DNA of 64,000 nucleotides from contig JAUJPP010000007.1 in the NCBI GenBank assembly GCA_030562195.1, positions 1,860,001 through 1,924,000 on the forward strand. The letters run 5' to 3'. The DNA comes from Nipponacmea schrenckii (taxonomy: Eukaryota > Mollusca > Gastropoda > Lottiidae). Position 1 is the stretch's first letter, and the number at the start of each line of letters is the position of its first letter. The notes under the pieces are model-generated. The model had not been told where the DNA came from, ran no database searches, and saw only the letters and a program-made list of their open reading frames with translations. Of the stretch, positions 1 through 62,356 are shown one piece after another. Both the position numbers and the translations under genes were made by a program.

Positions 1-1930
1 AACATTTCAAATATTTCGAAAAAAAAAACGAAATTAAACAATCGCTCTTCATAAAATTTGGCCAATGATCATATGTATACACGTGCTAAATTTCATCGAA
101 ATCGGTCAATCAACAGTGCCTGAATTAGGATTTGAAAAATTGTAAAAAAAAATTCAAAATGGCCTCCAATATGGCTGGTGCTTATTTTTTAAGGTCATAT
201 CGAATACTATTCAGAAGTAATTTACAAAGCAGTTTACACTTTCCACCTAGCTGTTATAGACCGGAAGTTACGTTACTACGTCATTTGAGGCCAAACCGTT
301 AGTTTATTTTTTTAGTCAAAGTTTTGTTAAAATTGGAATCAAATCGCCTTTCAACTGGTGAAGTTTAAAAATCCACCTTTTATATTAAGCGAGAAATCAA
401 GGTTTTGAATTTTTCCCCGATGACCCTTCAAATTTAAATTGCAAATCTTGGGTAGAGGATTTAACCGAATTGCATAAAACTGATATTTGTTAGTTGACAA
501 ATACTTTGAAGTTTTCATGTTTGAAAATCCGATCGAAATCGAAATCACAATAAAATTGCAAGAGCAAAAAAAAAAAAAACCCCTCAATTTCCGGTTCTCA
601 CTTCCGGTCGTAAATTTCATTTATACATATTGATTTATATTTTGTATCTGTTTAATAAGGGTGTAATTTTATTCAAAAATTTTTCGTAAATTTTAATTTT
701 ACATATTGATCTATATATTGTTTTTTAAGCTGTGAATTTGTACATTATTATTCTGTTTTGTCTTGAAGTTAAGTAGAACTAAAAAAAACAAATCGCTAAT
801 TTTCCATTTTCCAATCTAGAGTGCTTTTATCATCTGTCAACACCTGTCAATTATTCTTAACACAATATTTCTGAATTGTTAAAAAAATATTAACCATCCA
901 TGTCACACATCGTTGAAATGAGAAAAAGTCTGAAAGCTGAATATTACAACTATATTGATGTGGGATAAATTTATTGTATGTTAAAAATTTAGGTAAAAAT
1001 ATTACATAATAAGATTAATCCTTTTTGATGCCCACTAGAGGTGTGAAAAATTCTGTTGATGTTTTATAACACCTGTCAATCATCATTAGGGTTTATATCT
1101 TTCTAAATAAATTCATAAAACTTACATTTTGTTTTTAAATTTGAGCCAAATTATGATGATTTAAATTTTTATAGTAAACCACCCATGTCACATATCGTTC
1201 GAAAGGGAAAAACTTGTATATCCTCTTTCTGATAACCAAATTGATGTGGGATAAATACATTTGATTTGAGTGCTGGATTCAAAATTCTATACTTTCTTTA
1301 TTCAAAATATATTCATGCATTATTGACATATATCTTTTGTAACAGAATCCCAAGCTTATCGAAAAATGTTCAGAATTCAAATCCTGCATTTTTTAGAGAG
1401 TATGGTTTGGTCGTTTGAAGTTCCGGAAGTTGATATTCTTCACCCAATATGAGCATATCTATAGATAGCATAAGTCAAGGTTATTGTGTACTGAAAATGT
1501 CAAGGTCATTGAAGGTCAAGGTCACGAGATAGAGTTTTAAAATTTTCAAAAAATTGAAAAGTGTCTAAGAAGAGTTTAAATTCGAAATTCAAAATTCTGC
1601 CCCTATAACTTTTAGATAAAGTAAGAAAGCTTTGATGGAGGCCAAAATCATACGAATCGGATAAAAAATGGCGACATTATTAAAGTTTTGCTTCAATGTA
1701 TGACTACAAGATGACGGCTCATGTATCACTTCCGGTCAGGATATTTTCTGCTACATGGATTGTAATAATGCACAAAAGACAAAATATATCAATTTTGTCG
1801 ACATTTGAACTTACACCAGAAGTGGGTCGCTTTGCGAGGTTTTGAAAAACCGGAAGTGATAAAAAAAAATTAGTAACTTGATATTATTTGTATGGACAAA
1901 TTGTCTATATTCTGAGAATTTCAGATTGAT
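1..1930. other. gene-free repeat-rich DNA with a diverged duplication
   Basis: No exon recognised. Two diverged copies of one unit occur at about 820-1000 and 1050-1265, sharing CACCTGTCAAT, CCATGTCACA and TTGATGTGGGATAAA. Scattered ACTTCCGG/CCGGAAGT and GAAGGTCAAGGTCA words link it to the element family at 45-55 kb. Confidence 0.6.
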
Positions 1931-1933
1931 CCG

Positions 1934-3250
1934 AAAATAAGCAACAAAGTCAGAAATTTTTGTTCAAATTTTTTTTTGAAAAAAAAAAAATCAAAATTTA
2001 CAAAATTTCAAATGTATTAAATTCATCTTTTTACAATTAACATATTAAAGAAAATTTGAGATAAATCGGTCCAGAAATAAGTCATTCAGATTCGATGCAA
2101 AATTCTTGCTCTTTATGCAATATCTCATTTCCGTTTCAGCAAATATTTGGTTTTAGATATTCACTTGGTGGTATATTACTTCTTAGTAAAACTAGAAATA
2201 CTATTTCATTTTCTGTTTTTGCTGGAGGCAGATGACTTTTTTATTTGAATGTACAATATGTCAATATTTAATGAATTTCAGATCGATCCAATAATTAGCA
2301 AAAAAGTTGTAAATTTCAAATATTTTACCCAAAATGTTTGATAACAATTATTTTATCTGAAACATTTCAAAACTTTAATTTTTCAACTTCGTGAGATAAT
2401 TCTTATTATAATTAACAAACTTTGAACTAAATCGGCCTATAAATAGAGCTCTACAGACTTGATGCAAGTTTTTGCTCATTTGCAATAGCTCACTTCCGGA
2501 TAACCAAAAATTTCATGTTAGACATTCATTTTTGATTCCAGCCCATTTCACAACCTATTGTAGATTTTCGTGATGATCCAATGATTTTTCAACAAATTTT
2601 TTTCTATTAGCTGTAGGGTGCAACTCGTGCGCACTCTACAGGGAGCAAAATAAGCAACAAAGTCAGAAATTTTTGTTCAAATTTTTTTTTGAAAAAAAAA
2701 AATTCAAAATTTACAAAATTTCAAATGTATTAAATACATCTTTTTACAATTAACATATTAAAGAAAATTTGAGATAAATCGGTCCAAAAACAAGTCATCC
2801 AGATTCGATGCAAAATTCTTGCTCTTTATGCAATATCTCATTTCCGTTTCAGCAAATATTTGGTTTTAGATATTCACTTAAAACTAGAAATACTATTTCA
2901 TTTTCTGTTTTTGCTGGAGGCAGATGACTTTTTTATTTGAATGTACAATATGTCAATATTTAATGAATTTCAGATCGATCCAATAATTAGCAAAAAAGTT
3001 GTAAATTTCAAATATTTTACCCAAAATGTTTAATAACAATTATTTTATCTGAAACATTTCAAAACTTTAATTTTTCAACTTCGTGAGATAATTCTTATCA
3101 CAATTAACAAACTTTGAACTAAATCGGCCTATAAATAAGCTCTACAGACTTGATGCAAAATTTTTGCTCATTATGCAATAGCTCACTTCCGGATAACCAA
3201 AAATTTCATGTTAGACATTCATTTTTGATTCCAGCCCATTTCACAACCTA
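1934..3250. repeat. 0.7 kb tandem duplication of CCGGAAGT-type repeat
   Basis: The stretch beginning AAGCAACAAAGTCAGAAA near 1940 reappears near 2653, and both copies run to CCCATTTCACAACCTAT (about 2550 and 3250). The offset is about 710 and falls after a 22-base deletion in copy two near 2880. A short spacer (2555-2645) separates them. Few mismatches, so the duplication is recent relative to the underlying repeat. Confidence 0.85.
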
Positions 3251-3420
3251 TGGTCAAAACAGATTGATTGTATCACGATCATTTCATTCATATGTCTGAC
3301 AAAAAAAACTTTGCTTTCGATGACCTGTTTCGATGATGTTTATGTGATATCCCTACGCGACATTCCCATCTCCAATAGGCCTAACGAAAACATCGATATT
3401 GGGTTATAAAGAAAATCTCA

Positions 3421-3550
3421 AACTCGTCTTTCTTGATACCAAAAAATATTACCACTCGTCGATAAAAGTGTAAAACTCCGAGGCGCTGTCGAGGTTTTTT
3501 GCACTTTTATCGACTTGTGGTGATATTTTTGATATCAAGAAAGACTCGTT
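3421..3550. repeat. 130-base inverted repeat (MITE-like hairpin)
   Basis: Arms of about 58 bases, starting CTCGTCTTTCTTGATACC and ending GATATCAAGAAAGACTCG, meet around 3480. No ORF. Confidence 0.8.
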
Positions 3551-3598
3551 AGAGATTCACTATATACTCTATCATTTTCAGTTTAAGCTAGCGAGCTT

Positions 3599-3600
<2 letters not shown>

Positions 3601-3629
<29 letters not shown>
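3601..3629. repeat. poly(A) run
   Basis: About 28 consecutive A residues just upstream of the minus-strand SINE; nothing else is visible here. Confidence 0.9.
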
Positions 3630-3631
<2 letters not shown>

Positions 3632-3694
3632 AATCGATTGCCAATAAACTCTTTATTTAAAATGATTGAGAATAAGGCCCAATATACAAGGGAA

Positions 3695-4047
3695 ATGAAA
3701 ATGAAATGAATGGAGTTTTACGTCCTACTTTTCTGCACCTTATGTGCTAACGAAGACGGGCAACGCCATGCAGTGTGCTATGAGGAAAATTTGGCCAGGA
3801 CAGCGGCATTAGCCTGCTCTTTTTCGATTTCCAACTGTCGAGGTATCTTTAACGTTTAACGATCTCTGTTTATTGTCCCATCCGAACGACTAGACGCTTT
3901 TTCCATGTCAGTCCCTCCGACCTGCATCACTGACAAGGAAAACCGGGCTGAAAAATCCGAATGTTGATCTCGGCCTTTGCCGGGATTGAACCCGGGACCT
4001 TCAGGTTAGTGAGCAAACGTCTAACCCACTGAGCCACCACGGCTCCC
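3695..4047 (-). mobile_element. tRNA-derived SINE
   Basis: Read on the minus strand the element begins GGGGAGCCGTGGTGGCTCAG with an A-box-like TGGCTCAGTGG and a B-box GGTTCAATCCC, i.e. a tRNA-like head with polymerase III promoters. A body domain follows (CGGATTTTTCAGCCCGG to GGACAATAAAC) and a tail rich in ATTTCATTTCATT. Fragments of the same body recur at about 14530-14770 and 41630-41842, and of the tail at 38480-38530. The spurious minus-strand ORF here is not a gene. Confidence 0.8.
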
Positions 4048-4422
4048 CAATACACAAGATGGTCCTTTCTAACATTCAGCCCATTGGCAATAAAATGAAA
4101 AAAATCGAAACTAAGCCTATTCAATATTTCAATATTCAATTCCTCTGAAAATGCATATGTACATTTCAAGATCTATGGCCACACCAGATATATTCTATCA
4201 TGTTCAGCTTGAGCTGGCAAGAATCCCCCCTCCCCAAAAAAAAAACAATCAAAAAACAAATCATGGAATCCAGTGAAATGATTCTAAGTTATTATATATC
4301 TCAAATAAATGGAATTCTGGTTTATTTCCTCGTGTGTATATCGAATATTTGGAAGGAAATTACAACCTTTAGGATTTTAATTTAATCTTTCAAGCCACAA
4401 TAATATACAGTTGAGTGGAATA

Positions 4423-4779
4423 GTGGTCTAAGGGACGCAACTCTATCAAATACTAATAAATGTAAAGCCGCACTTGTTTTACCCCTAAGTTATAACTTGT
4501 GACAAATTTCAAGATCCTATCTATGTTCCTACTACCTAAATTTAGATAGATGTTAAATAATAAATAAACAGATTAAAAAGTACTAAAGTATTAACGGATC
4601 TAGAAAGTAAATGAAATCCGAAATCAATTTGACAACTTAAGCAATACCGTACAGTACGAGTTTTGGGGAAATATTAATGAATGACATATTGGAATGATAA
4701 GAGATCAAATAACTAATGCGATCTTTGTTGTCTGTAATTTCAAAAAATGAATTATAATGTGTTATGTCCCTTAGACCAC
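4423..4779. mobile_element. MITE with GTGGTCTAAGGGAC inverted ends
   Basis: 357 bases flanked by GTGGTCTAAGGGACGCAAC and its near-exact inverse (GTTATGTCCCTTAGACCAC). No coding capacity. A clear target duplication was not found. Confidence 0.75.
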
Positions 4780-4807
4780 GAATTAGTTTTATTCGACGTT
4801 TGTTTTC

Positions 4808-5140
4808 TTAAAGGGATAATTGGCGTAAGAATACACTCGCCCTTCGGCTTATATTTGTGTTTAATATTGACTATTAGTTAAATAAGTATGCATCCCACAC
4901 TTTACCAAATTTTAAAAAGCCACAATAAAAATATATTCGGAATTTAAAAAAAAGGGGAGCCAGCGACGATTCCATTCAGTTTGAGAAGGAAAGCGTCTGA
5001 TAAATTAACGTTAAAACATCATTGTGTAATTAGACAGTAGGGGTCAAGGACGCGTGAAAACCCACATGTTAGAGTTACTTCCCTTTATTCTTTTACAATT
5101 TGAAAATCGCTCGATGGAAGTATTAAGCTTTAAAGAACTA
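4808..5140. mobile_element. TTAA-flanked MITE, right-truncated copy
   Basis: Starts TTAAAGGGATAATTGGCGT and closely matches 11928-12235. Its right part is missing; similarity stops after GAAAATCGCT, just before the (TTA)n tract. Confidence 0.8.
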
Positions 5141-5150
5141 TGGTGCAAAC

Positions 5151-5206
5151 TTTTATTATTATTATTATTATTGTTATTGTTATTGTTATTGTTATTGTTA
5201 TTGTTA

Positions 5207-5295
<89 letters not shown>

Positions 5296-5416
5296 TATTC
5301 ATCATTTATTTATTATTCATCATTTATTTATTATTTATTTATTATTTTTTATTATTTTTTATTATTTATTATTATTTATTATTTATTATTATTTATTATT
5401 ATTATTTATTATTATA
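5151..5416. repeat. large (TTA)n / (TTG TTA)n microsatellite
   Basis: About 266 bases of TTA units with an inner block of alternating TTG/TTA and a degenerate TTTATT tail. Open frames of poly-Leu and poly-Ile here are artefacts of the repeat. Confidence 0.97.
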
Positions 5417-5602
5417 ATTGGACTGTTAGGTCTTCCATAATAACGGAGCAAAATTTGCCTTTCAATTGCCACCGCACACCAAAATCTGTTTATATATAAT
5501 ACGTATAAAAATATGCCTGACCTTCATTGATCATACAAATGTTTTATCTTGAGAACAGACATGATTTAAATAATGTTATTTAACACATGATCAAAATTTC
5601 AG

Positions 5603-5661
5603 AACTTGTGGGGTTAAATGCGACTGAAGGTGATGCAGCATGGATGGTGAGAATGAGAGAG
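5603..5661 (+). CDS. SLC23-like exon a (first visible)
   Basis: Follows a tttcag acceptor and ends before gtaaat. Reads (G)AA then [19 protein letters not shown], joining IQGN of the next exon. Phase 1 at its 5' end, so an upstream exon must exist. It corresponds to the extracellular segment just before the REIQG/REVQG motif of vertebrate SVCTs. Confidence 0.82.
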
Positions 5662-8600
5662 GTAAATATCATATCAAATAACATTGTACAACAGTTATTT
5701 ATAAATAAATAATTATAGTTTCATTATCAAATAAAAATTCAAGATTATCGTCGCTTCATTTTCGAGACAGCATAATTTCCCCCTTTCCGAAGAACGTGAA
5801 ATGGCTGATTGGAAATAGAAATTCAATCTGTTAAAGCAGACATATGGACTATATCAACTTAAGAATTCTGTACAATCTAAACCTGTATATTTTTAGATCC
5901 AGGGGAACCTGATACTAGCATCAGTAACTCAAGTATTGGTTGGTGGTACTGGCTTGATTGGTTTAATACTACCTTGGATTGGACCATTAACTATAGCACC
6001 GACTATAGCCCTGATAGGATTGTCATTAATTGAAGCTGTTATTCAGTTTTCACAGCTTCATTGGGGTATAGCTTTCTTGTAAGTTGCATTTTAATCTTCA
6101 TTCTTCAATTTCTATGTATCTTCGAGCCTCAGTGCCTCCAATGATATTCATGATAGAGCCTCCTCGGTATCAACCATACCTTATCCTCCGCTGTATAAGT
6201 CATATGTCAACTTCATAATAGAGCTTCAGTTCCTCCACTGTATCAGTCATATCTTACTATCATGATAGAGATTCAGTTCCTTCACTGTATCAGTCATATG
6301 TCACCTTCATGATAGAGCTTGAATTTCTCCACTGTATCAGTCATATTTTATCTTCATAATAGAGCTTCAGTTCTTCCACTTTATCAGTCATATGTCACCT
6401 TCATGATAGAGCTTGAATTTCTCCATTGTATCAGTCATATCTTATCTTCATGATATAGCTTGAATTCCTCCACTGTATCAGTCATATCTTATCTTCATGA
6501 TAGAGCTTGAATTCTTCACTGTAGCAGTCGTATCTTATCTTCATGATGGAGCTTGAATTTCTCCACTGTATCAGTCATATCTCACCTTCATGATAGAGCT
6601 ATGATAGAGCTTCAGTTTCGACACTGTATCAGTCATATCTCACCTTCATGATAGAGCTTGAATTCTTCCACTGTATCAGTCATATCTTATCTTCATGATA
6701 GAGCTTGAATTCCTACACTGTATCAGTCATATCTCACCTTCATGATAAGGCTTGAATCCCTCCACTGTATCAGTCATATCTCACCTTCATGATAGAGCTT
6801 GAATTCCTCCACTGTATCAGTCATATCTTACCCTCACGATAGAGCTTCAGTTCCTCCACTGTATCAGTTATGTATATATGTATATATAACTGAAACAGTT
6901 GATATATCTTCATGAATGGGCTTCAGCTCCTCCACTTTATCAACTACATCTGATCTCATAGAAGCATACACATATTCTTGTAGAACGTTGGGTTTGGTAC
7001 TCATATTTTGTCTGGTTTTGGAGAAAGTAGAAGTTCCGATGCCTGTCTATACTAGATATAAAGGTTGTCAGAAACAGAAGATTCGGATATTTCTTATAGC
7101 ACCTGTATGTAAGAATTATTCTATATAACTCGGCTTTAGATGAAAAAAACAAGTTTATTCAAACATACGCTGCATATTCAGCTTATATTCGTAGACAATA
7201 CTTTCAAGCAATTCCCTATATTTTATTTATTTAACAAATCTTTTTGCATGACAATGAATGATTTATACCAAATATTGTCTGCAAAAAGTGTGTACATTTG
7301 TCGTATATTTCCAGATTTTATATGCTATTGGAATAGCCTGGTTGATATGTTACATATTTACTGTCTCAGATGTTTTCAGTCCAAATACTCAAAATATGAC
7401 TAACTATGCTCGAACTGATACTCATCTACAAGTATTACAAGATGGACCATGGTTTTACTTTCCATATCCATGTAAATATGATTATGTGACTCTTTGTTTT
7501 AGATTGATTAGAACTGGGTCCATTACACTTAAATCAAGTGTTGCAGCGATCCAAAATCCCACAGACGTATTTTAACTACACAGCGTTTCACAAAACTATG
7601 TGAAGAACTAATCCCTTTTTGGACCGTTTCCATGTTAAATCTTGAAATTCAACCTTCTATGGCTTTTTTCAGAAATCTCATTAAAAACTTCGTTTCTGTA
7701 CAAAAATTCAATATACATGTGTATCATGACCACATGTAAATTTTAAACTAGTCAAAACGAAAGTAGACTACAACCTTTTTTCAAAATCCGCTGGACTGGA
7801 ACTGTATCCAAAACCACTTTAAAAAAATCTTAAAGGCAATATATTTTCAGACATCAAATTCCAAATTTAGACAAAAAATTAGTGAACAAGGGCATGGAAA
7901 AACCAAAAAGGGAGGAAGAAAGATGATTTTCAAAATAGCAGAGGCTAAATTGCATAAACTGTTGTAGAGTCCATTTATGTTACCATTTATAGTCTTAGAT
8001 AGTCGAGTTTTCGCTTTATGTAAAAAGAGATTATTGTCGCATATATGTTAATTATATAACATTAACATACGATTAGTTATGGTATCGAAAATTACTTCAT
8101 CTTTAATTCCTATTTGTTTCATTTGTTTTATTTTTTTTAATCAGTTCAATTTGGAAAGCCTACTATCAGTGGAGCTGGTTTTGTCGGCATGTTCGCAGCT
8201 GTGATAGCATCAATAATAGAATCTGTCGGTGATTATTATGCATCTGCACGTGTTTCACAAGTACCACCACCACCGGCACATGCAGTAAATAGAGGTATAT
8301 TAATAGAAGGTATCAGTAGTATAATATCTGGAATTCTTGGTGCTGGGCATGCAACAACATCGTACAGTAGCTGTATTGGTGCTATAGCTGTAACCGGGGT
8401 AGGCACAAACAAATTAACACTTTGCTTACTTAAAATGCTGATCCATGTCGCTTTCGCACTGAGCAACTCGCTGTGGGCTGATAAGATAAAATTCATTACA
8501 CCTGAGCAACATGTATCGTTCTGAATATTTCCCTTTCAAACTACCCTACATATTTTTTTTTTGTGTATAAATAGTATTTTATTCAGTGAATGAAAGGGAT

Positions 8601-26905: not shown

Positions 26906-27764
26906 TTTTTATACGCCCACATTATAATGTGGTCGTATATTGTCGTCACCCCTGTCCGTCCGTCCGTCCGTCCGTCCGTCCACAATTGCTTGTGAACGCA
27001 AAAGAGGCTACATTTTTTGTTGGATTTGAATGAAAATTGCTGTGATCGTTTATATTGATGAGATCTCGGACAAGTTCGAAATTGGCAATTTTTCGATGAA
27101 CGGTTTTTAAGTTATTGCACTTGACTTAGCAAAAACGCGTCAAAATTGGCTTGTGAACGCGATAGATACTAAAGTTTTCATCGGATTTAAATGAAACTAT
27201 CTGTGATCATTAATATTGATGAGATCTCGGACAAGTTCGAAATTGGCGATTTTTCGACGAATGGTTTTTGAGTTATTGCACTTGACTTAGCCAAAACACC
27301 TCAAAATTGGCTTGTGAGCGCGATAGAGATCACAATTTCCATTTGATTTGAATGAAATTTGGTGTTATCATTTATATTGATCTTGGACAAGTTTGATCGT
27401 GACTATTTTTGGGTGAACGCTTTTTGAGTTATTGGCCTTGACTAAGTCAAATTGCGTCGAAATAGACTTGTGAACACGATAGAGACAACATCCGATTGGA
27501 ATGAACTTTGGTGTGATCATTGAAGTTGATGTCATCTTGGTCAAGTTCGAAATTAACATTTTTGAGTTATTGCACTTGACTTAATCAAAACGCAGCTTGT
27601 GATTGCGATAGACAATACAGTTTTCATCTGATTCTAATGAAATGTGGTGTGAACATATTTTGACGAGAACATGGATTAGACCTAAATAATCTTAGAGTTT
27701 TTGCCTGTGTTAAAACAGAAAAAATATTTTAAAGTGGGCGTATCTTGCTAGGCAACCACTTGTT
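26906..27764 (+). mobile_element. core-repeat element, + orientation
   Basis: TTTTTATACGCCCACATT, hairpin partner, then (GTCC)n at about 26955-26980, four to five ~150 bp repeats with TTGAGTTATTGCACTTGACT, ending AAAGTGGGCGTATCTTGC. Confidence 0.82.
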
Positions 27765-39892: not shown

Positions 39893-41290
39893 AAAAAGAT
39901 AGCTTGCTAGGAAAGGTAACATACGCCCACACATCAGCATAGTTAAATGATTTGTCCTTTGATTGATAGCATCTATATATACAAACAACCCCTTCTTCTA
40001 AGTCGTCAAATGTGAACTTGAACGCTGTCTTGTCAATTCCAAAACTTACAAGTTTCATCAAAATCCATTTAAAATTGTAGCTTCTATTGCACCGACAATA
40101 AAATTTTGAAGCGATTTTACTAAGTCAAGGGCAATAACTCAAAAAACGTTCATCAATATTGTCAAGTTTGAACTTGACAGGCGTCTTATCCATTCCAATG
40201 CTCACACCAAGTTTCATTAAATTCCATTGAAAATGTAGCTTCTTTTGCACCAACAATACAATTTTGACGCGGTTTTACAAAGTCATGGGCAATAAATAAA
40301 AAACCGTTCATCAAAATTGTCAAATTGGAACTTGACTGCCTCCCTTATCAATTCCAATATTCACACCAAGTTTTATTAAAATCAATTGAAAATTGTAGCT
40401 TTTATTGCGTCCACAATAAAATTTTGAGGTGATTTGACTAAATCAAGGGCAATAACTCGCAAACCATTCATCGAACAATTGTCATATTCGAACATAACTG
40501 GCAGTTTATAAATTTCAATGCTCACACCAAGTTTCATTAGAATCTATTGAAAATTTTAGCTTCTATTAACCCACAATAAAATTTTTACATGATTTTACTA
40601 AATCAAGGACAATAACTCGCAAATCATCCATAGAACAATTGTCATATTCGAACATAACTGGCGGCTTATACATTCCAATGCTCACACCAAGTTTCATTAG
40701 AATCCATTGATAATTGTAGCTACTATTGCACCGACAATAAAATTTTGATGCACTTTTACCAAGTCAAGGGCAATAACTCGAGAACAGTTTTTCAAAAAAA
40801 CGTCAAATTCGAACTTGACCGGTGTCTTATCAATTCAAATGCTCACACCAAGTTTCATCAAAATCCATTGAAAATTGCAGCTTCTATAGCACCCACAATA
40901 AAATTTGGATGTGATTTTACTAAGTCAAGGGCAATAACTCAGAAAACGATCATCGAAAAATGGTCACATTTGAATTTTACTGCGGCCTTATCAGTTCAAA
41001 TGCTCACGCAAAGTTTCAGCAAAATCCATTGAAACTTGTAGCACCCACAATAAAATTTTAACGCGATTTTACTCAGTCCAGAGCAATAACTCGCAAACTG
41101 TTCATAAAAAAAGGTCAAATTCAAACTTGTCCGCTTTGAACTTGACAGGCGTCTTATCAATTCAAATGCTCACACCAAGATTCTTCAAAATCCATTGAAA
41201 ATTGTAGATTTAATTGCACCCACAATCAAATTTTTACCTGATTCACTAAGTCAAGGGCAATCCCAAGATAAAAAAAGTCATCATTATATC
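39893..41290 (-). mobile_element. core-repeat element, minus orientation, type 2 repeats
   Basis: Starts AAAAGATAGCTTGCTAGG and GTAACATACGCCCAC; about nine ~150 bp repeats with CAAGTTTCATCAAAATCC, GCACCCACAATAAAATTT and AGTCAAGGGCAATAACTC. The distal end is missing. Confidence 0.8.
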
Positions 41291-41454: not shown

Positions 41455-43935
41455 GTAAGCAGTCATTTAGGCACAGTACCTTAGGCACACGGTCTGATAA
41501 GCACGTGTCATTTAGGCACACTTTCAATTAGGCACACTAAAATTTGCCACACTGTTATTTAGGCACAGAGTCATTTAGACACAGTGATTTTGGCACACTT
41601 TCAATTAAGCACACCTTCAATTAGGCATTTGGATTTTTTCAGTCCGGTTTCCCCTTGTCAGTGAAACGGATCTGACGACTGACTTGGAAAAAGCGCTAGT
41701 CGTACGAATTGGACAATAAACGGAGGCAAAAACAGTAGACAAATGCCGCTGCCTTGCCAAATTTTCCCACATTGCGCACTGTATGGCGTTGTCCGTCTTC
41801 ATGTAAAAGAGTAGGACGTAAAACTCCATTAATTTCATTTCATTTTTATACGCCCACATGGAAATGTGGACGTATATTGCCGTCGCCCCTGTCCGTCCGT
41901 CCGTCCGTCGGTCCGTCCGTCGGTCCGTTCACATTTGTTGTATCCACGATAGAGGCTACAGTTTTTATCCGATCTTAATGAAACTTGGTATACATGTATA
42001 TATTGATAATATCTCGGTCAAGTTCGAAAATGGAAATTATCGCAAGAACGACGGTTTTTTAGTTATTGCACTTGACTTAGTAAAAACGCGTCAAATTTGG
42101 TTTGTATCCACAATAGAGGCTACAGTTTTTATCCGATCTTAATGAAACTTTGTATACATGTATATATTGATGATATCTGGGTCAAGTTCGAAAATAGAAA
42201 TAATCGCATGAGCGGTTTTTGAGTTATTGCCCTTGACTAAGTAAACACGCGTCAAATTTGGGTTGTATCCACAATAGAGGCTACAGTTTTTATCCGATCT
42301 TAATGAAACTTGGTATACATGTATATATTGATGATATCTCGGTCAAGTTCGAAAATAAAAATAATCGCATGAGCGTTTTTTGAGTTATTGCCCTTGACTT
42401 AGTAAAAACGTGTCAAATTTGGGTTGTATCCACAATAGAGGCTACAGTTTTTATCTGATCTTAATGAAACTTGGTATACATGTATATATTGATGATATCT
42501 GGGTCAAGTTCGAAAATAGAAATAATCGCATGAGCGGTTTTTGAGTTATTGCCCTTGACTTAGTAAAAACATGTCAAATTTGGGTTGTATCCACAATAGA
42601 GGCTACAGTTTTTATCCGATCTTAATGAAACTTGGTATACATGTATATATTAAGGATATCTCGATCAAGTTCGAAAATGGAAATTATTGCATGAACGGTT
42701 TTTGAGTTATTGCCCTTGACTTAGTAAAAACGCTTCAAATTCGGGTTGTATTCATAATAGAAGCTACAGTTTTTATCCGATCTTGATGAAACTTGGTGTA
42801 CATGTATATATTGATGATATCTCGGTCAAGTTCGAAAATGGAAATTATCGCATGAAAGGTTTTTGAGTTATTGCCCTTGACTTAGAAAAATCTTGTCAAA
42901 ATTTTAGTTTCGATAAAATAAATCCTCCAATTTTCAGAAGATGTTGATGAAACTTGGTGTGAGCATTGGAATTGATTAGGCCTCAGTCAAGTTTGAATTT
43001 GACAGTTTTTCAATGAATTGTTTTAAGTTATTGCCCTTGACTTAGTAAAATTGCGTCAAAATTCTATTGTGGTTGTGATTTTCAAGGGATTTTGATGGAA
43101 CTTGGTGTAAGCATCAGAATTGATAAGACATTAGTCAAGATTGAATTTCTGACTTTTTTTAACAAATGGTTTTTGGGTTATTGCCCTTGACTTAGTAAAA
43201 TTGCGTCAAAAATATTTGTGCTTGCAAAATAAGCTACAATTTTTTAATAGATTTGATGAAACTTGGTATGAGTATTGAAATAGATAAGATGGTGGTCAAG
43301 TTCTAATTTGACAATTTTCCATGAACAGTTTTTTAGTTTTTGCCCTTAACTTCAATATTAATTCAGTGAATGTTTTTTGAGTTATTGCTCTATTTATTTT
43401 TCAAATTCAATGCTGCCAGTGGGCGTATGTTACCTTGCCTGGCAAGCTATCTTTATGTTCATTCAAAGACACAGTACACCTTTAAGTATTTTAAAGTTTA
43501 AAGTTCGATACATGTAGTATCTGCCATCTTGGCAATTATGGCAGGACTAAAAGCAAATTATGAACAGTGGGGAAGGGCAAAGAAATTTCCAAATACGAAG
43601 TTGGGGGGGGGGGGGGGTGAATGACTCTTGACATCGATATGACTCCATACTTTTTGATATGCGTAGCAAAAAGGAGATGTGTCTGGTTATGTGTGTTTGC
43701 GTGCCTATTGAAAGTGTGCGGAAATGAATACTGGCCTAATTTAAGGTGCTTCGAAATAGATGTGTGGCTAAATGAATTTGTGCCAAATTGAAGGTGTACC
43801 TAATTGAAGGTGTGCCTAAATGACTGCTCAATTTTAGTGTGCCTAAAAAGAGTGTGCCTTAATGGGTATGTGCCTAATTGAAGGTTTACCTAAAGCAATG
43901 TGCCTAAATAACACCGTGCCTAAATGACATTGTCA
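41455..43935. mobile_element. GTGCCTAAATGA-arm composite, larger copy
   Basis: Left arm 41455-41628 (TTTAGGCACA units), then headless SINE body 41629-41842, then a nested core-repeat element (41843-43455), filler with a G run, and the right arm 43675-43935 made of GTGCCTAAATGA-type units. The arm/SINE junction (AATTAGGCATTT-GGATTTTTTCAG) is the same as at 14520. Confidence 0.7.
41843..43455 (+). mobile_element. core-repeat element with regular 162-bp units
   Basis: TTTTTATACGCCCACATGG, hairpin partner, (GTCC)n mixed with GTCG (41888-41930), six well-preserved ~162 bp repeats (GAGGCTACAGTTTTTATCC at about 41954, 42116, 42279, 42441, 42601, 42763). Three type 2-like units follow, then GTGGGCGTATGTTACC and palindrome CTTGCCTGGCAAG, AGCTATCTTT. 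The best-preserved whole copy. Confidence 0.88.
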
Positions 43936-48000: not shown

Positions 48001-50166
48001 AAGATAGCTTGCCAGGCAAGGTAATATACGCCCACTGGCAGCATTTATTTCAAATAAAAACTTTTCAGTAAGGTTACAAAAGTGGAATGAAATATTCTAC
48101 CTTCCACCATATATTTTTTTCTAGGGTCTCTAGTTTCATTAAAAACTGTCAAGAATTGTACCTAACTCAACTCATTAAATATTTTTCGGTATTTTTATGA
48201 TTTGCAATAGGGTTCACCCTTAATAATATTTTGATATTTTTAATTCTTAATAAGGCTCATTCTTGGTTGATATTAAACAATTTCAGCGAGTTTTGTCAAA
48301 AATGAATGTTTAGAGTGTTCACAAGCCAAAAGTTGAAAGCGATTTTGAAAACAGGCCCAAAAACTGACACTAAATATTTTTCGATTTATCTGATTTTCAA
48401 TAGGGTTTATCCTTGTGAGAAAACAAATACTAAAGCCAAGCTTCATCAAAATCCATTCAAAATTGTTCTTTCTAGAGTGTTTACGAGTTAAATTGAACGC
48501 GTTTTCAAAAACAAGGGCAATAACTTGTACTAAATATTTTTCGATTTTCAATAGAGTTCATCCTTGGGAGACAACAAATACTCCAGCCAAGTTACATCAA
48601 AATCCATTAAAAATTGTTCTTTCTAGAGTGTTTACAAGCTAAAATTGAACGCGTTTTCAAGAACAAGGGCTATAACTGACACTAAATATATTTCTATTTA
48701 TTTGATTTATAATAGAGTTCATCCTTGGGTAAAAACAAATACTCAAGCCAAAGTTAATCAAAATCCATTAAGAATAGTTCTTTCTAGAGTGTTTACAAGC
48801 TAAAATTGAATGCGTTTTCAAGAACAGGGGCAGTAACTCATACTAAAAAATTTTTCGATTTCGCTTTTCAATAGGGTTCATCCTTGAGTTATAACACACT
48901 CTCACACCAAGTTTCATCGAAATCCATCAAGAATTGTGCCATGTAGAGTGTTTACGAGACAAAAATCGAACGCGTTTAAAAGAACAAGGGCAATAATTCA
49001 TATTAGATATATTTTGATAATTTTAATTTTCAATTAGGCTCATCCCTTGCGATATCCAACAATTTCAGTGAGTTTTGTCGACATTGGTCATGAATTGTAC
49101 CTTCTAGAGTATTTATTAAAAAGTTAAACCTGTTTTCAAACACAAGGGTAATAACTGACACTAAATATATTTCGATTCATTTGATTTTCAACAAGGTTCA
49201 TCCTTGGGTAAAAACAAATACTCAAGCCAAGTTATATCAATATCCATTAAGAATTGTTCTTTCTAGAGTGCTTACAAGCTAAAATTGAACGCGTTTTCAA
49301 ACACAAGGGCAATAACTGATACTAAATATTTTTCGATTTAACTGAATTTCAATAGGGTTCATCCTTAGGTGATTACAAATACTCATGCCAAGTTATGTCA
49401 AAATCGCTCAAGAATTGTGACTTGTAGAGTGTTTACAAGGCAAAAATCCAACACATTTTATAGAACAAACGCAATAATTCCTATTAAATATATTTCGATA
49501 TGTGCTATTTTCAAAAGGGTTCATTCTTGGGTGATATTAAACAATTTCAGCAAGTTTCGTCAAAATCGGTCAATAACTGTGCTTTGTAGAGTGTTTACAA
49601 GCTAAAAATTGAACGCGTTTTCAAAAACAAGGGCAATAACTGATATTAATTTTTTTTCGATTTGACTGGTTTTCAATAGGCTTCATCCTTGGGTGATAAC
49701 AAATACTCAGGCCAAGTTTCATTAAAATCCATTAAAAATTGTTCTCTCAAGAATGTTTACAAGCTAAAATTGAACGCGTTTTCAAGAACAAGGGCAATAA
49801 CTCATACTAAATGTTTTTCGATTTCGCTGATTTTCGATAGGGTTTATCCTTGAGTTATAACATACTCTCACACCAAGTTTCATCAAAATCGGTCAAGAAT
49901 TGCACGTTGTAGAGTGTTTACGAGCCATTCAAGAACAAGGGCACGAACTCATACTAATTTTTTTCCGATTTCGCTGATTTTCAATAGGGTTCATCCTTGC
50001 GTGATCATAAACACTCATATTAAGTTTCATCTAAATCCGTCAAGAATTACACCGTGTAGAGTGTTTACGAGCAATTGTGGACGGACGGACGGACGGACGG
50101 ACGGACGGACGGACGGATGTGGGTGACGACAATATACGCCCCCCATTTCATGTGGGCGTATAAAAA
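48001..50166 (-). mobile_element. core-repeat element, minus orientation, 2.2 kb, both ends present
   Basis: Starts AAGATAGCTTGCCAGGCAAG and GTAATATACGCCCACTGG; about twelve ~165 bp repeats (AATAGGGTTCATCCTTGGG, TAGAGTGTTTACAAGC), (GGAC)n at 50079-50116, then GTGGGTGACGACAATATACG and the TGTGGGCGTATAAAAA end. Longest copy in the window. Confidence 0.88.
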
Positions 50167-52625: not shown

Positions 52626-53125
52626 NNNNNNNNNNNNNNNNNNNNNNNNNNNNNNNNNNNNNNNNNNNNNNNNNNNNNNNNNNNNNNNNNNNNNNNNNNN
52701 NNNNNNNNNNNNNNNNNNNNNNNNNNNNNNNNNNNNNNNNNNNNNNNNNNNNNNNNNNNNNNNNNNNNNNNNNNNNNNNNNNNNNNNNNNNNNNNNNNNN
52801 NNNNNNNNNNNNNNNNNNNNNNNNNNNNNNNNNNNNNNNNNNNNNNNNNNNNNNNNNNNNNNNNNNNNNNNNNNNNNNNNNNNNNNNNNNNNNNNNNNNN
52901 NNNNNNNNNNNNNNNNNNNNNNNNNNNNNNNNNNNNNNNNNNNNNNNNNNNNNNNNNNNNNNNNNNNNNNNNNNNNNNNNNNNNNNNNNNNNNNNNNNNN
53001 NNNNNNNNNNNNNNNNNNNNNNNNNNNNNNNNNNNNNNNNNNNNNNNNNNNNNNNNNNNNNNNNNNNNNNNNNNNNNNNNNNNNNNNNNNNNNNNNNNNN
53101 NNNNNNNNNNNNNNNNNNNNNNNNN
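52626..53125. other. assembly gap (500 N)
   Basis: Exactly 500 N, a placeholder of unknown true size. It lies between two copies of a duplicated block. Confidence 1.
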
Positions 53126-55197: not shown

Positions 55198-56594
55198 AAA
55201 AGATAGCTTGCCAGGTAATATACGCCCATTGGCAGCATTTATTTCAAATAAAAAACTTTTCAGTAAGGTAACAATTGATCTTTGAATGGCATTTAGTAAC
55301 CGGATATGATATAAACAATCACACGATATATGGATATAACGATGACTTTAATAAAACATAACAGACGACGTTTCAATAAGTATTCTCTTATCGTCTTCAG
55401 GCCAATTTTTGAGGGTGTAATACAATTCAACCAAATAAATATAAAAAAGTAGAGAAGCCACTAAATTAGAACAATGCAACTTGAGAATAATCTACTATAC
55501 AAACATTAATAAACACCTTAATTAAGGTAACAATTAGTGGAATGAAATATTCAACCTTCCACCATATATTTTTTTTCTAGGGTCTCTAGTTTCATTAAAA
55601 ACTGTCAAGAATTGTACCTAATAACAACTCATTAAATATTTTTCGGTATTTTTATGATTTGCAATAGAGTTCACCCTTAATAATATTTTGATATTTTGAA
55701 TTCTTAATAAGGCTCATCCTTGGTTGATATTAAACAATTTCAGCGAGTTTTGTCAAAAATGAATGTTTAGAGTGTTCACATGCCAAAAGTTGAAAGCGTT
55801 GAAAACAGGGGCAATAACTGACACAAAATATTTTTCGATTTATCTGATTTTCAATAAGGTTCATCCTTGGGTGAAAACAAATATTAAAGCCAAGTTTTAT
55901 CAAAATCCATTCAAAATTGTTCTTTCTAGAGTGTTTACAAGCTCAAATCGAAAGTTTTTTCAAGAACAAGGGAAATAACTTGTACTAAATATTTTTCGAT
56001 TTTCTATAGGGTTCATCCTTGGGAGAAAACAAATACTAAAGCCAAGTTTCATCAAAATCTATTAAAAATTGTTCTTTCTAGAGTGTTTACAAGCTCAAAT
56101 CGAAAGTTTTTTCAAGAACAAGGGAAATAACTTGTACTAAATATTTTTCGATTATCTGATTTTCAATAGGGTTCATCCTTGGGTGAAAACAAATACTCAA
56201 ACCAAGTTTCATCAAAATCCATTCAAAATTGTTCTTTCTAGAGTGTTTACAAGCTAAAATTGAACACTTTTTCAAGAACAAGGGCAATAACTTGTACTAA
56301 ATATTTTTCGATTTACTTGATTTTCAATAGGGTTCATCCGTGGGTGAAAACAAATACTCAAACCAAGTTTCATCAAAATCCATCAACAATTGTTCTTTCT
56401 AGAGTGTTTACAAGCTAAGATTGAACACGTTTCCAGGAACAAGGGCAAGAACTCATACTAGATATTTTTCGATTTCGCTGATCTTTAATAGGGTTCATCC
56501 TTGCGTGATCATCAACACTCATATCAAGTTTCATCAAAATCCGTTAAGAATTGCCCGCTCTAGAGTGTTTACGAGCAATTGTGGACCGACGGAC
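55198..56594 (-). mobile_element. core-repeat element, minus orientation, fused to LINE
   Basis: AGATAGCTTGCCAGGTAATA start, Penelope-like block, about seven ~165 bp repeats, then GACCGACGGACGGAC running straight into LINE sequence at about 56595 in place of the normal end. Confidence 0.78.
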
Positions 56595-57554
56595 GGACAA
56601 GCCAGGAACGGCAATGAATGAGGTACCAACGTTGTGACGCTCGTGATCTTTCGTGCGCTAAAAGTCCATCTTAGACTACGGTTCAGGCATTCATGACCGC
56701 TAGACAAATGCTCCTGTATAAGTTAGATGTCAACGGAGTCTCCACATAACCCAGATGATAGTTCGATGGGATCAACATCCCATTGAGCATCATAAGAATA
56801 AGCAATCTTGGAGTCAAAAGACACTCTCACACCAAGTTTCATCAAAATCGGTCAAGAATTGTTCCATGTAGAGTGTTTAAAAGACAAAAATCAAACACGT
56901 TTTAAGGAACAAGGCCAATAACTCATACCAAATATTTTTCGATTTCGCTGATTTTCAATAGGGTTCATCCTTGAGTTATAACACACTCTCACACCAAGTC
57001 TCATCAAAATCCGTGAAGAATTGCACAGTGTAGAGTGTTTACGAGCCATTCAAGAACAAGGGCAAGAACTCATACTAAATTTTTTCAGATTTCGCTGATT
57101 TTCAATAGGGTTCATCCTTGCGTGATCATCAACACTCATATCAAGTTTCATCAAAATCCGTTAAGAATTGCCCGCTCTAGAGTGTTTACGAGCAATTGTG
57201 GACCGACGGACGGACAAGCCAGGAACGGCAATGAATGAGGTACCAACGTTGTGACGCTCGTGATCTTTCGTGCGCTAAAAGTCCATCTTAGACTACGGTT
57301 CATGCATTCATGACCGCTAGACAAATGCTCCTGTATAAGTTAGATGTCAACGGAGTCTCCACATAACCCAGATGATAGTTCGATGGGATCTACGTCCCAT
57401 TGGGCAGCATAAGAATAAGCAAGCAATTGCCCAACAACTGCTCAGTGTACACAGATATGCTCGCTATCCTTTTTGCGATACAATGTTCCGCAGGCCACTT
57501 TCACTCAAACTAGGTAGTACTAAGAGACTCGCTAAGTAGTCTGACAGTGGATGA
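56595..57554 (+). pseudogene. LINE relic, left part, with 617-bp tandem duplication
   Basis: AAGCCAGGAACGGCAATGAA occurs at 56599 and 57216. Frames read KSILDYGSGIHDR (the R-S-x-L-D-Y-G block that follows LINE RT) and, in the second copy, LSVHRYARYPFCDTMFRRPL. The duplicated unit also includes a piece of core-repeat element (56830-57210). Broken off by the inverted-repeat element at 57555. Confidence 0.6.
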
Positions 57555-59908
57555 TAGTCAGGAGGAATATCCTGAAATTTTGAATGTAAGGTGGGAGTAC
57601 AGACTGGATTGATATAGGTTAGTAGATGTCAAGGCATCTATTTTCCAGAGGGTGTGCAAAATTTCAGCCATTTGCATTTTTGTACATCCAAGATAGCCAC
57701 CATCAACTTCAATAATACTGAATTAGCTATAACTTCCTTAATATTTGGGCTATGCAGTTCAATGTGGGATCTATACCTAGGTTTGTGGGGGCGAGAAATC
57801 ACATGGAAGGGATATCTTCCTAAATGCAAAAATCAAATAAAGCTACCTAAACTAGGTCCAGGATGCAAAAAAATATCCGAAACCAAATTTTAAAGAACTT
57901 TTACTATAGAACATTATATTTTTCAGAGGTTTTACTAAAGACCATTATATTTTAAATATGTTTTACAGTATAAATACTAAACCACAGAGTAATTCAACAT
58001 TCGGTATTGAGTCGGTACTGCTGTAATGGCCTAATTCAAGTCATCATCTTGATCTGTGTCATCTGACAAATCTTCATTTTCCTCTAATTATTTTCATTTC
58101 GTGTTAGTGGATTTCTGCAGGCGTCGCCACCTTCACACAGACAGAACATGGTACATCCTATCTTAGAACAGGTACACACAGACACCCTGATGTCTTACTT
58201 TTACAGTGGATTAACTGCAGTATGTCTGCTGGAGCATATAGTGTATCAGGTGGTACAGTTCGTGGCATGAGAATACCCTGGTGATCAAGATCCATTTTTG
58301 GCGGTTCCTCTTGCAGTGCAGCTTTCCATACAGCGACCTGTTGATGGCATCTTTGGATATTTTAAACGAAAGCCTCATTGGTAGGTGGCAGGGAGCAAAG
58401 TTTTACGGATGTTGCACCACTCTTCCCAGTTTTCAAACGCCACATTTTTATTCCGCATTCTGTCATTGATGTGCATGACTCTGTTGCCTTCCCATATGCA
58501 GCACACATAAATTTTGTTGCCTGAGCTTCAACCAATGTCATATCCGATTTTTCATCACCAATACTTGAAAGTGAATGGCTTCACTGGATGCCTTGCCAAT
58601 ACCATGCAATGAAGCTACAGTATCTGCACCAGAAATCCCATGTATTGCCAACAGATCATCTGCAAATATAAGGGCGACGTTAGCAGTTTGCAGTGCTATG
58701 TAGACAAAATGCTTAAAACTTTCAACATACACATTAAGTTTATCTGAGGGCTAGGTGATGTTCCATAGAAGTGCAGAGCATCATAAATCACTGTATCCGG
58801 GATGGGACAGCTACGTTCAGCAATAACCACCTGTTATTTCAGTTTCAGGTTTGATTTCGACTTAGCAATTTTCATTTCGCCATCTGGGTTGAACACGGAT
58901 GGTGGATATGCTGCCAACTCACATGCCAAGACATCGTCAAATTTTATTTCACGGGACCTCGCAAGAAGGTCAATAAGACGTGCATAAATAAGTTCCAGGT
59001 CATAAACACGGTGGTCACACACTAACACATGCTTTTTCTTAGCATCCATTGTGACTACCACCTTGCCCAAAGATCCGTTAAAAAAATTATGGCCAGCCAG
59101 CTTTGAAATCATTCAATTCCCCGCTGTCCAAGGTTGACAGCTTTGTCTGCATTGACATCAGGGTGAGCAAGTTGTCCTGTAACAATATTAATCAGTGCAC
59201 CATCAGGGTGAGAATCGGCATCAAAGGGTTTGATGCAGACTTCAAGGGTGTTCTGTATGCCCTGGCGATCAGCACAATTTTGTAGTTCTGCTATGGCTTG
59301 CTCGAGCATCAAGCTTTTTTATGAGTTGATTGAAAGTGGTAACCTCCTCTGTCTGCACAACACCACGAAGTAACTCTTCTACTATCATTCTGAAGTCACG
59401 GGAATTTTGAGGTTATTTCTTTCCGCTCTCACAAGAGACAAGCTTTTTTTTTTATTGCAGTCTGTATAGTATCAGGATCTGCAGGAGGTCGGTTAATAAG
59501 TAGCAGAAAGACAACTTCAGTCTGCAATTCAGGAAACATTCCCGCTTCACGACACAGTTTAGTGCTATACCATTATATTCAGGGCATTTCGGCTGGGAAA
59601 CTATGTCCCGAAAAAAAGCAAGGTCATTTTCTTGTGCTCTACGAACCACGATAGCTTGGGTAGCTAAAAATATAAACTGATTAATCATCCCCAAAAAACA
59701 TGGGTATAGAGCCCAAATACTAACGTAGTTATGACTGTTTTAGTATTATTGTGATCGATGGCGGCCATCTTGGATTTACAAAAATGCCAATGTCTGAAAT
59801 TTTGCACACCCTCCGGAAATTACATGCCTAGACACCTAGTAACATATATCGATCCAGAACAAAAGTCTGTACTACTTTTCCACCCTATCTGACATTTCCT
59901 CCTGACTA
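57555..59908 (-). mobile_element. inverted-repeat DNA-transposon-like element carrying an orphan ORF family
   Basis: 2354 bases. Left end 57555-57754 and right end 59703-59908 are inverted copies of about 200 bases (roughly 70% identical by eye), sharing TAGTCAGGAGGAA, GGAGGGTGTGCAAAATTTCAG and GCATTTTTGTA-ATCCAAGAT. Both ends are flanked by TGA (57552-57554 and 59909-59911), a possible 3-base target duplication. The interior is a decayed minus-strand ORF (58031-59694). It splits a LINE whose RNase H region resumes at 59912. The nuclease-like ORF suggests comparison with Academ-type elements, described as encoding XPG-like nucleases; that link is memory only. Confidence 0.75.
58031..59694 (-). 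pseudogene. decayed member of an uncharacterised multi-copy ORF family (PIN/XPG-like segment)
   Basis: Minus strand, several frames: QAIVVRRAQENDLAFFRDIV and QPKCPEYNG; KLCREAGMFPELQTEVVF and INRPPADPDTIQTAIK; FRMIVEELLRG; IKPFDADSHPDGALINIVTG; VYDLELIYARLIDLLARSRE, DDVLACELAAYPPSVFNPDG; YVESFKHFVYIALQTANVAL; DLLAIHGISGADTVASLHGI; SLPPTNEAFVLNIQRCH; a Cys-rich CTMFCLCEGGDACRNPLT; and an acidic end NEDLSDDTDQDDDLN with stop at 58031. This order matches uncharacterised multi-copy proteins I recall from cnidarians, molluscs, echinoderms and fish. Frameshifts throughout, and a deletion joins ANVALIF directly to LLAIHG, removing the probable catalytic core. Confidence 0.72.
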
Positions 59909-59911
59909 TGA

Positions 59912-60298
59912 TTAGATGAAATCAGCCAAGCGTGGTGCTTTGTACATAGTCAAGGCAAATCAATCGAGTTGGCATGTTTTCCGTCTCCTGTCGACATACA
60001 AGGGAACGAAATTGCATGATCACTAAAGGCATTAGATCGACATGTGAAGCAACTTTCATATAGATGCTGACTCATTCTGCTTCCGATTAAACGATAGAAT
60101 CAGTGGTGCTTTTACACAACCCCGATCGGCAGATCTGTCGATCGGTTGGCCTTCTGAGAATGATGGGTAAGGTATGAAACCACAGATACGAACTAAAGCT
60201 ATGTTCTTGTGGTGAAGCTGGCACCGCCGAGCATCTGTTAATTCACTGTGGGCAACTAAGGCATCGATATATTGAAAAAAAGTTAAGCCGTCGGAATG
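59912..60298 (+). pseudogene. LINE relic, right part: RNase H and C-terminal Cys motif
   Basis: SQAWCFVHSQGKSIELA-type reading, then FPSPVDIQGNEIA (RNase H W-I-P-S-H-V-G-I-x-G-N-E-x-A-D block) and TKLCSCGEAGTAEHLLIHCG (C-x-C-G-x-x-x-T-x-x-H-L-L-x-x-C block that ends many LINE ORF2 proteins). Stops interrupt it. It ends abruptly at the 28S junction without a 3' UTR. Confidence 0.68.
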
Positions 60299-60997
60299 TC
60301 AAGGACCGTCGAGTCGTAGCCGAACAGGCCCCCGCTGGAGCCGGCTTTGCGGATAAAGTTGATTGCTCTCGCTCCCTATCTCCGGCAGAACCGCTTCCAG
60401 GGTCAGCGAGCGCACCTCAAAAAGAAAAGTTAACTCTTCTCGACTCTCCCGACGGTGTATCCGACCTTCTTTGCGTCGCCGCTTGTGCTCCGCCTTCGGG
60501 TACGGGAATCCTAACCCGTTTCCCTTTCGGCCCGTGCATTGAGTGAGACAATTTAACATGAAAGAAAAAGAACGTCCCGCTTCTCCCAGGCCTTAGGACC
60601 GACTAACCCGCGGCCGATCGAAGGAGCAACGCGGAACCCTTCTCCACTTCGGCCTTCGAGGTTCTCGCTCGAATATTTGCTACTACCACCAAGATCGGCA
60701 CCCGCTTCGTCTCCTACTCGTCTCGGCTTCGGTCAGTCTCTACCGACAGGCCGGAAGATATTGCCGAGACGGCCGGGTGTAGGCTGCACGCTACAGCGCC
60801 ATCCATTTTCAGGGCCCACCAATTCGGCAGGTGAGTTGTTACACACTCCTTGGCGGGTACCGACTTCCATGGTCACCGTCCTGCTGTCTTTACCGATGGA
60901 CGCCTTTTGTGGGTTCTGCTGAGCGTGACGATCGGGCGCCTTAACCCGGCGTTTGGTTCATCCCACAGCGCCAGTTCTTCTTACTAAAAGTGGCCCA
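60299..60997 (-). rRNA. partial 28S (large-subunit) rRNA fragment
   Basis: The minus strand reads as metazoan 28S: GGGCCACTTTT, AAGAACTGGCGCTGTGGGAT, GCCGGGTTAAGGCGCCCG, GTGTGTAACAACTCACCTGC, CTGAAAATGGATGGCGCTG, TTGGTGGTAGTAGCAAATAT, GAAGTGGAGAAGGGTTCC, ending TCGACGGTCCTTGA. About 700 bases of an internal section, truncated on both sides, with some expansion segments shortened; local GC is far above the surroundings. A dispersed pseudogene copy, not part of an rDNA unit. Protein frames here are shadows. Confidence 0.93.
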
Positions 60998-62356
60998 TTC
61001 AGTATGAGTTATTACCCTTGAATGGCTCGTAAACACTCTACAATGTGCAATTCTTGACCGATTTTGATGAAAATTGGTGTGAAAGTGTGTTATAAGTCAA
61101 CCCTATTGAAAATCAGTGAAATCGAAAAATATTTGAGTTATTGCCCTTGTTCTTGAAAACGTGTTCAATTTTAGCTTGTAAACACTCTAGAAAGAACAAT
61201 TCTTAATGGATTTTGATGGAACTTGGCTGGAGTATTTGTTCTTACACAAGGATTAACCCTATTGAAAATCAAATAAATCGAAATATATTTAGTGTTAGTT
61301 ATTGCCATTGTTTTTTAAAACGCGTTCAACTTTTTGGCTTATAAACACTCTGGAAGACACAATTCATGACCAATTTTGACAAAACTCGCTGAACTTGCTT
61401 GATACCACCCAGGGATGAGCCCTATTGAAAATTAAAAATATCAAAATATATCTAATATGAATTATTGCACTTGTTCTTTAAAACGTGTTTGAATTTTAGC
61501 TTGTAAACACTCTTGAAAGAACAATTCTTAATGGATTTTGATGGAACTTGGCTGGAGTATTTGTTCTTACACAAGGATTAACCCTATTGAAAATCAAATA
61601 AATCGAAATATATTTAGTGTTAGTTATTGCCATTGTTTTTTAAAACGCGTTCAACTTTTTGGCTTATAAACACTCTGGAAGACACAATTCATGACCAATT
61701 TTGACAAAACTCGCTGAACTTGTTTGATACCACCCAGGGATGAGCCCTATTGAAAATTAAAAATATCAAAATATATCTAATATGAATTATTGCACATGTT
61801 CTTTAAAACGTGTTTGAATTTAATCTCGTAAACACTCTACATGTAACAATTCTTGACGGTTGATGAAACTTGCTGCGAGAATGTGTTATAACTCAAGGAT
61901 GAACCCAATTGAAAATCAGAGAAATCGAAAAATATTTAGTACGAATATATTCTTGTTCTTGAAAACGTGTTCAAACACCATTTTTTTTTAACCCTATTGA
62001 AAATCAGATAAATATTTAGTGTCAGTTATTGCCCTTGTTTTTGAAAATACTTTCAACTTTTGGGTTGTAAACTCTACACATTCATTTTTTGACAAAATTC
62101 ACTGAAATTGTACATATCACCCAAGGATGAGCCCTATTAAAAATATCAAAATATAATAAAGGGTGAACCCTATTGCAAATCATAAAAAATACCGAAAAAT
62201 ATTAAATGCGTTGTCATTGTACAATTCTTGACAAATTATAATGAAACTAGACAACCTAGGAAAAAAGTCTATGACGGAAGTTTGAATATTTCATTCCGCT
62301 ATTTTATTCATAATCAATGCTGGGCGTATATTACCTTGACTGGCAAGCCATCTTTA
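60998..62356 (+). mobile_element. core-repeat element, + orientation, 5'-truncated
   Basis: Starts inside a core repeat directly at the 28S junction. About eight ~165 bp units follow; two consecutive two-unit blocks (61150-61490 and 61500-61820) are almost identical, a recent ~345 bp duplication. Ends GGGCGTATATTACCTTGACT and CATCTTTA. Confidence 0.82.

Follow-up and report, generated by a model that had tools for sequence, protein, structure and literature searches.

Does the decayed open reading frame (ORF) lying between inverted repeats in this part of the Nipponacmea schrenckii genome belong to a DNA transposon and, if so, to which kind? The stretch analyzed (hereafter the window) comprises 64,000 nucleotides, positions 1,860,001-1,924,000 of contig C7, in a genome of 399 Mb and 1,093 contigs. 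A preliminary description had placed the ORF at 58031-59694, between inverted repeats of about 200 bases, and both statements are borne out. The two arms align over ~200 nt, with a 148-nt core that is 83% complementary, and their longest exact inverted match is 20 nt, versus a maximum of 13 nt in 200 random pairs of similar dinucleotide make-up. The window contains exactly two occurrences of the terminal sequence TAGTCAGGAGGAA, one per end and on opposite strands (57555-57567, plus; 59896-59908, minus; shuffle mean 0.00, n = 100). Homology to the protein family extends over 58087-59694; its start lies 16 nt from the right arm. Two other genome matches to TAGTCAGGAGGAA (L003 and L004) were rejected as terminal inverted repeat (TIR) ends, their identical surroundings looking coding; the reversed pattern, searched as a control, had one match.

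A target-site duplication (TSD) of TGA had also been suggested. TGA is indeed found at both ends, but the same letters can also be read as a 5-bp duplication because ATGAT is nearly symmetrical; the element would then be one base shorter per end, with AGTC ends. The probability of a chance duplication is 0.017 (3 bp) or 0.001 (5 bp) by composition, and 0.022 or 0.0019, respectively, by random window positions. We favor the 3-bp duplication with TAG ends (table 1), on the evidence of copies elsewhere in the same genome.

Table 1. Features of the window element and other two-ended copies in the genome.
Feature	Position	Strand	Description	TSD
Whole element	57555..59908	− (coding direction)	2,354 bp; inverted ends, collinear protein remains	present
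Left TSD	57552..57554		5-bp reading: ATGAT, 57551-57555	TGA
Left TIR	57555..57751	+	at 3' end of coding direction	
XPG-like domain end (SGADTV motif) and Cys-rich C-terminus	58087..58669	−	P0084 ~1253-1461	
Linker and start of XPG-like domain	58664..59303	−	P0084 ~868-1080; frameshifted	
Protein remains	59275..59427	−	P0084 ~670-718	
Remains upstream of second putative DDE aspartate	59453..59694	−	P0084 ~516-587	
Right TIR	59710..59908	−	at 5' end of coding direction	
Right TSD	59909..59911		5-bp reading: ATGAT, 59908-59912	TGA
C5 copy (L037)			1,467-aa open frame, 1544-5944 (−); arms 88.7% identical over 310 columns; ends TAGGCTAGTAAA	TTG
C12 copy (L038)			same terminus family as C5; longest open frame 1,095 aa	TTA
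C10 copy (L036, L040)	33.3 Mb			TTA
C13 copy (L021, L042)	14.2 Mb		both ends; flanks ATA and ATC	no exact TSD
C7 copy (L018)	32.86 Mb		ends TAGTCTAGTCAATC; 3,355 bp	TAA
C3 copy (L044)	25.27 Mb		103-nt arms, 86%; ends TAGTCTGG; ~4.25 kb; ends and TSD read by eye	ATA
C10 copy (L007, L019, L048, L049)	31.75 Mb		112-column arms, 74%; ends TAGTCGGGGAGCCA/TAGTCCGGAAGCCA; 5,414 bp	TAA

The protein remains, read on the minus strand from 59694 to 58087, are collinear with P0084, a family member of 1,477 aa that served as the mapping reference (P0093 and P0056 were used where P0084 did not align). Four segments of P0084 are missing from the window copy: residues 1-515, which include the first putative DDE aspartates (D433/D436); ~588-669, with the second, D607; ~719-867, with the putative DDE glutamate E810; and ~1081-1252, with most of the nuclease acids (D1081 to D1212). 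Two of the XPG-like acidic positions are retained, the others being missing. Because these gaps remove the putative DDE residues and the nuclease acids, the window element is inert; it has the appearance of a decayed or non-autonomous derivative. Pfam searches of five window fragments returned no family. Other, weak matches to the family within the window, for example at 40.9 kb, look like chance and were set aside.

Searching the genome with P0084 yielded 49 matching stretches, several per copy, and both sides were read for 14 copies, window included. Eight copies have both ends, two have one end only (on C8, L014 and L041; on C9, L033 and L043), and four lack convincing arms. Exact 3-bp duplications flank seven of the eight two-ended insertions (six of seven when the window is excluded); for the C10 copy at 31.75 Mb, the ends come from a scan that required TAG ends and reported 3-bp repeats. 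The termini form five families, window included, all of which start with TAG(T/G)C. A 2-base TA duplication was considered and discarded, the flanking TGA, TTG, TTA, TAA, and ATA repeats being better explained as 3-bp TSDs next to TAG ends. The four longest copies measure 5.1-5.4 kb; those on C7 and C3 are shorter. The seven insertions found in addition to that of the window, in which inverted ends surround the family's coding region, support the earlier proposal that this ORF family constitutes the coding portion of a mobile element. On C3 (G000:C3), family matches at 17.39-25.27 Mb recur at 47.02-54.90 Mb with equal scores and at exactly +29,626,336 bases, which suggests that the assembly contains a duplicated stretch or has joined haplotypes.

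Taken alone, the window would be compatible with another origin, namely an unrelated TIR element devoid of any ORF whose ends had captured a host or orphan gene, since the right arm of the window element was not seen elsewhere in the genome: a search with that arm returned this locus alone, through its own two arms (a search of this kind cannot establish rarity), and none of the other loci fetched matches either arm. Inverted repeats unique to this locus, an outcome that the preliminary description had listed as adverse to a transposon, were thus nearly found in the search made with the right arm. Four other TIR families of the same genome nonetheless enclose the same protein family, and one of them is present as copies that are 98.7-99.1% identical, coding region included, which makes capture extremely improbable. 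These identities are those of the C12, C10, and C8 copies to the coding DNA of C5, the C13 and C9 copies being 96.9% and 96.1% identical to it, respectively; such high values speak for recent movement of C5-like copies. The C5 protein still has the DDE candidates, and its nuclease acids are retained with substitutions (HEEAD to EGDAD, and one aspartate to glutamate). With 24% identity to P0084 along its length and these altered acids, C5 represents a distantly related lineage within the family and is no sister of the window copy.

Intact family members without inverted ends had been named as the second adverse outcome. The C5 copy, with its open frame, has ends; the candidates are L039, L045, L046, and L047, all coding copies for which no convincing inverted arms were seen within the DNA read. 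In L046, only short, chance-like pairs were found and rejected, including one matching at 10 of 15 positions and flanked by TTG on both sides. L039 (G000:C13:1290300-1297500), a distant relative, has a 1,394-aa open frame in which the DDE candidates are kept and the Cys-rich tail is absent, and it may possibly be a domesticated copy. It is the locus that would suit a domesticated or immobile gene family whose TIRs are incidental; yet this would apply at most to the L039 lineage, the other copies carrying TIRs and TSDs, and we consider it very hard to credit for the family.

The family itself is large. The window read-through matched 43 proteins, a longer relative 44 including itself (among the 7,999 candidates sharing most words, which were scored), and the region of P0056 before the nuclease half 191, with 120 of these listed (among 7,993 candidates chosen likewise). 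Proteins of at least 1,400 aa make up 45 of the 194 collected; each of these 45 matches the window element. Entries from animal genomes and metagenomes are labeled hypothetical or left unnamed, and the sources named in the matches, the sea spider Nymphon striatum, the gastropod Nucella lapillus, and the fishes Aldrovandia affinis and Epinephelus coioides, fit the distribution in many invertebrates and fish described previously. Two Nymphon gene models (P0017 and P0021) fuse family remains with a PF03564 domain, and two proteins filed under bacterial metagenome-assembled genomes (P0057 and P0179; Sedimenticola and Bacteroidota) probably reflect animal contamination of the bins. Outside the own genome, no related DNA was found in viral contigs (searched with protein patterns and a TIR pattern), genome contigs, phages, or plasmids. 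No Pfam model reached its cut-off among the family members scanned. DUF6589 (PF20231) matched at the same place in the middle region of 17 of 39 members (best E-value 1.7e-4), with none of the scores shown reaching the curated 27-bit cut-off (the highest, 25.1, in P0119, for which DUF6589 also appears in the precomputed domain column), and 5_3_exonuc_N matched the nuclease half weakly in 1 of 39 (E-value 0.02). Our literature search retrieved no paper joining DUF6589 with transposition.

Structure prediction and fold search gave the nuclease half an Exo1/FEN1/XPG fold, placing the predicted model in the FEN1/XPG superfamily, and the XPG-type acidic positions, which we equate with those of FEN1 by motif, are conserved across the family. 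The PIN/XPG-like fold anticipated earlier is therefore supported in its XPG-like form. The family differs from the known Exo1/FEN1/XPG 5' nucleases in being only 16% identical to Exo1 in alignment and in carrying the domain inside a transposon protein; PDB sequence searches gave no match with P0084 and A8, and one irrelevant weak match with P0010. In the N-terminal half, D433/D436, D607, and E810 are conserved, and within the whole-protein model the order of strands and helices resembles that of RNase H; fold searches with this long model were filled by XPG-type folds and so bear on the nuclease half, saying nothing of the DDE half. The idea that the ORF encodes a transposase with an XPG-like fold stands for the XPG-like half, but the catalytic transposase center is more probably the DDE-like N-terminal half.

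These features recall AcademX, reportedly a lineage of the Academ superfamily described by Kapitonov and Jurka in 2010 and by Kojima in 2020. The AcademX nuclease is of XPG type, and AcademH is expected to share the transposase half. In the window and the seven further insertions, TIRs surround the coding region, the family encodes a predicted nuclease, and exact 3-bp duplications flank seven of these eight insertions; PMC10045372 ties AcademX to a nuclease and duplications of 3 or 4 bp, and AcademH to a helicase and duplications of 9 or 10 bp. Because nuclease and short duplications correspond to that published description, we infer the Academ name from them; as described there, AcademX shows no difference from our elements, whereas AcademH differs in both respects. 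The 5-bp reading of the window duplication would not fit AcademX. Academ is listed among DDD/E superfamilies (PMC9587614) and in Repbase (PMC4455052), passages of PMC10799480 deal with helicase-bearing elements, and passage searches of PMC12730594 and PMC10380557 gave nothing on Academ transposons. In molluscs, mainly bivalves, Academ consensus sequences have a mean length of 5,565 bp according to an extract of PMC10294476, close to our four longest copies.

We therefore consider it very probable that the window element is an Academ transposon (class II, cut-and-paste) of the AcademX type, now dead and internally deleted, whose full-length relatives measure ~5.1-5.4 kb and whose intact members encode one protein of ~1,470 aa with N-terminal Cys/His (zinc-type) motifs, a DDE/RNase-H-like half, an Exo1/FEN1/XPG-like half, and a Cys-rich C-terminus. 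No empty site was found, which counts against this explanation, as do the unmatched right arm, the four coding copies lacking convincing TIRs, and the C13 insertion without an exact TSD. A distinct, non-Academ superfamily that likewise fuses an XPG-like nuclease with a DDE transposase and makes 3-bp duplications is an improbable alternative. It draws on the likeness to Academ being one of description, not of protein alignment with a reference, and on the sparse Pfam signal (DUF6589 and a single 5_3_exonuc_N match); against it stand the published pairing of nuclease and 3- or 4-bp TSDs in AcademX and the mollusc consensus length. Should this alternative apply, which we doubt, the fused flap-type nuclease would make the second-strand cut and help to set the 3-bp stagger, in a superfamily so far filed as an orphan family. 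The AcademX reading makes the novelty modest, since the kind of element is probably not new and most likely falls within the known Academ superfamily. In such an element, the zinc motifs and the Cys-rich tail would bind the TIRs, the DDE center would cleave the ends and join them, with a stagger of 3 bp, to the target DNA, which would account for the 3-bp duplications, and the flap-nuclease domain might process the second strand by removing or cutting 5' strands where ends have been excised or joined. Recently moved copies, one of them with an open frame, could serve to test what a flap nuclease does as part of a transposase. Moreover, because this large family of hypothetical or unnamed proteins is transposon-encoded, gene models including it should be masked.

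The surroundings of the element do not sustain the view that it interrupts a LINE: the RNase H-like decayed stretch was recognized by eye only, and Pfam searches of the flanks gave nothing relevant. In our own reading, the flanks are off frame when joined, and no second copy of them was seen within the window. About 320 bases from the right end of the element, a large subunit rRNA fragment (60229-61207, minus strand; Rfam RF02543, 426 bits, model positions 665-1888 of 3401) is probably a pseudogene piece. A run of exactly 500 N (52626-53125) marks an assembly gap. Tandem arrays with units of ~147-163 bases and multiples occupy 26984-27490, 40049-41261, 41937-43352, 48311-50076, 55804-56576, 56907-57197, and 61099-61975; their consensus sequences are partly similar, and they look like related repeat modules dispersed through the window.
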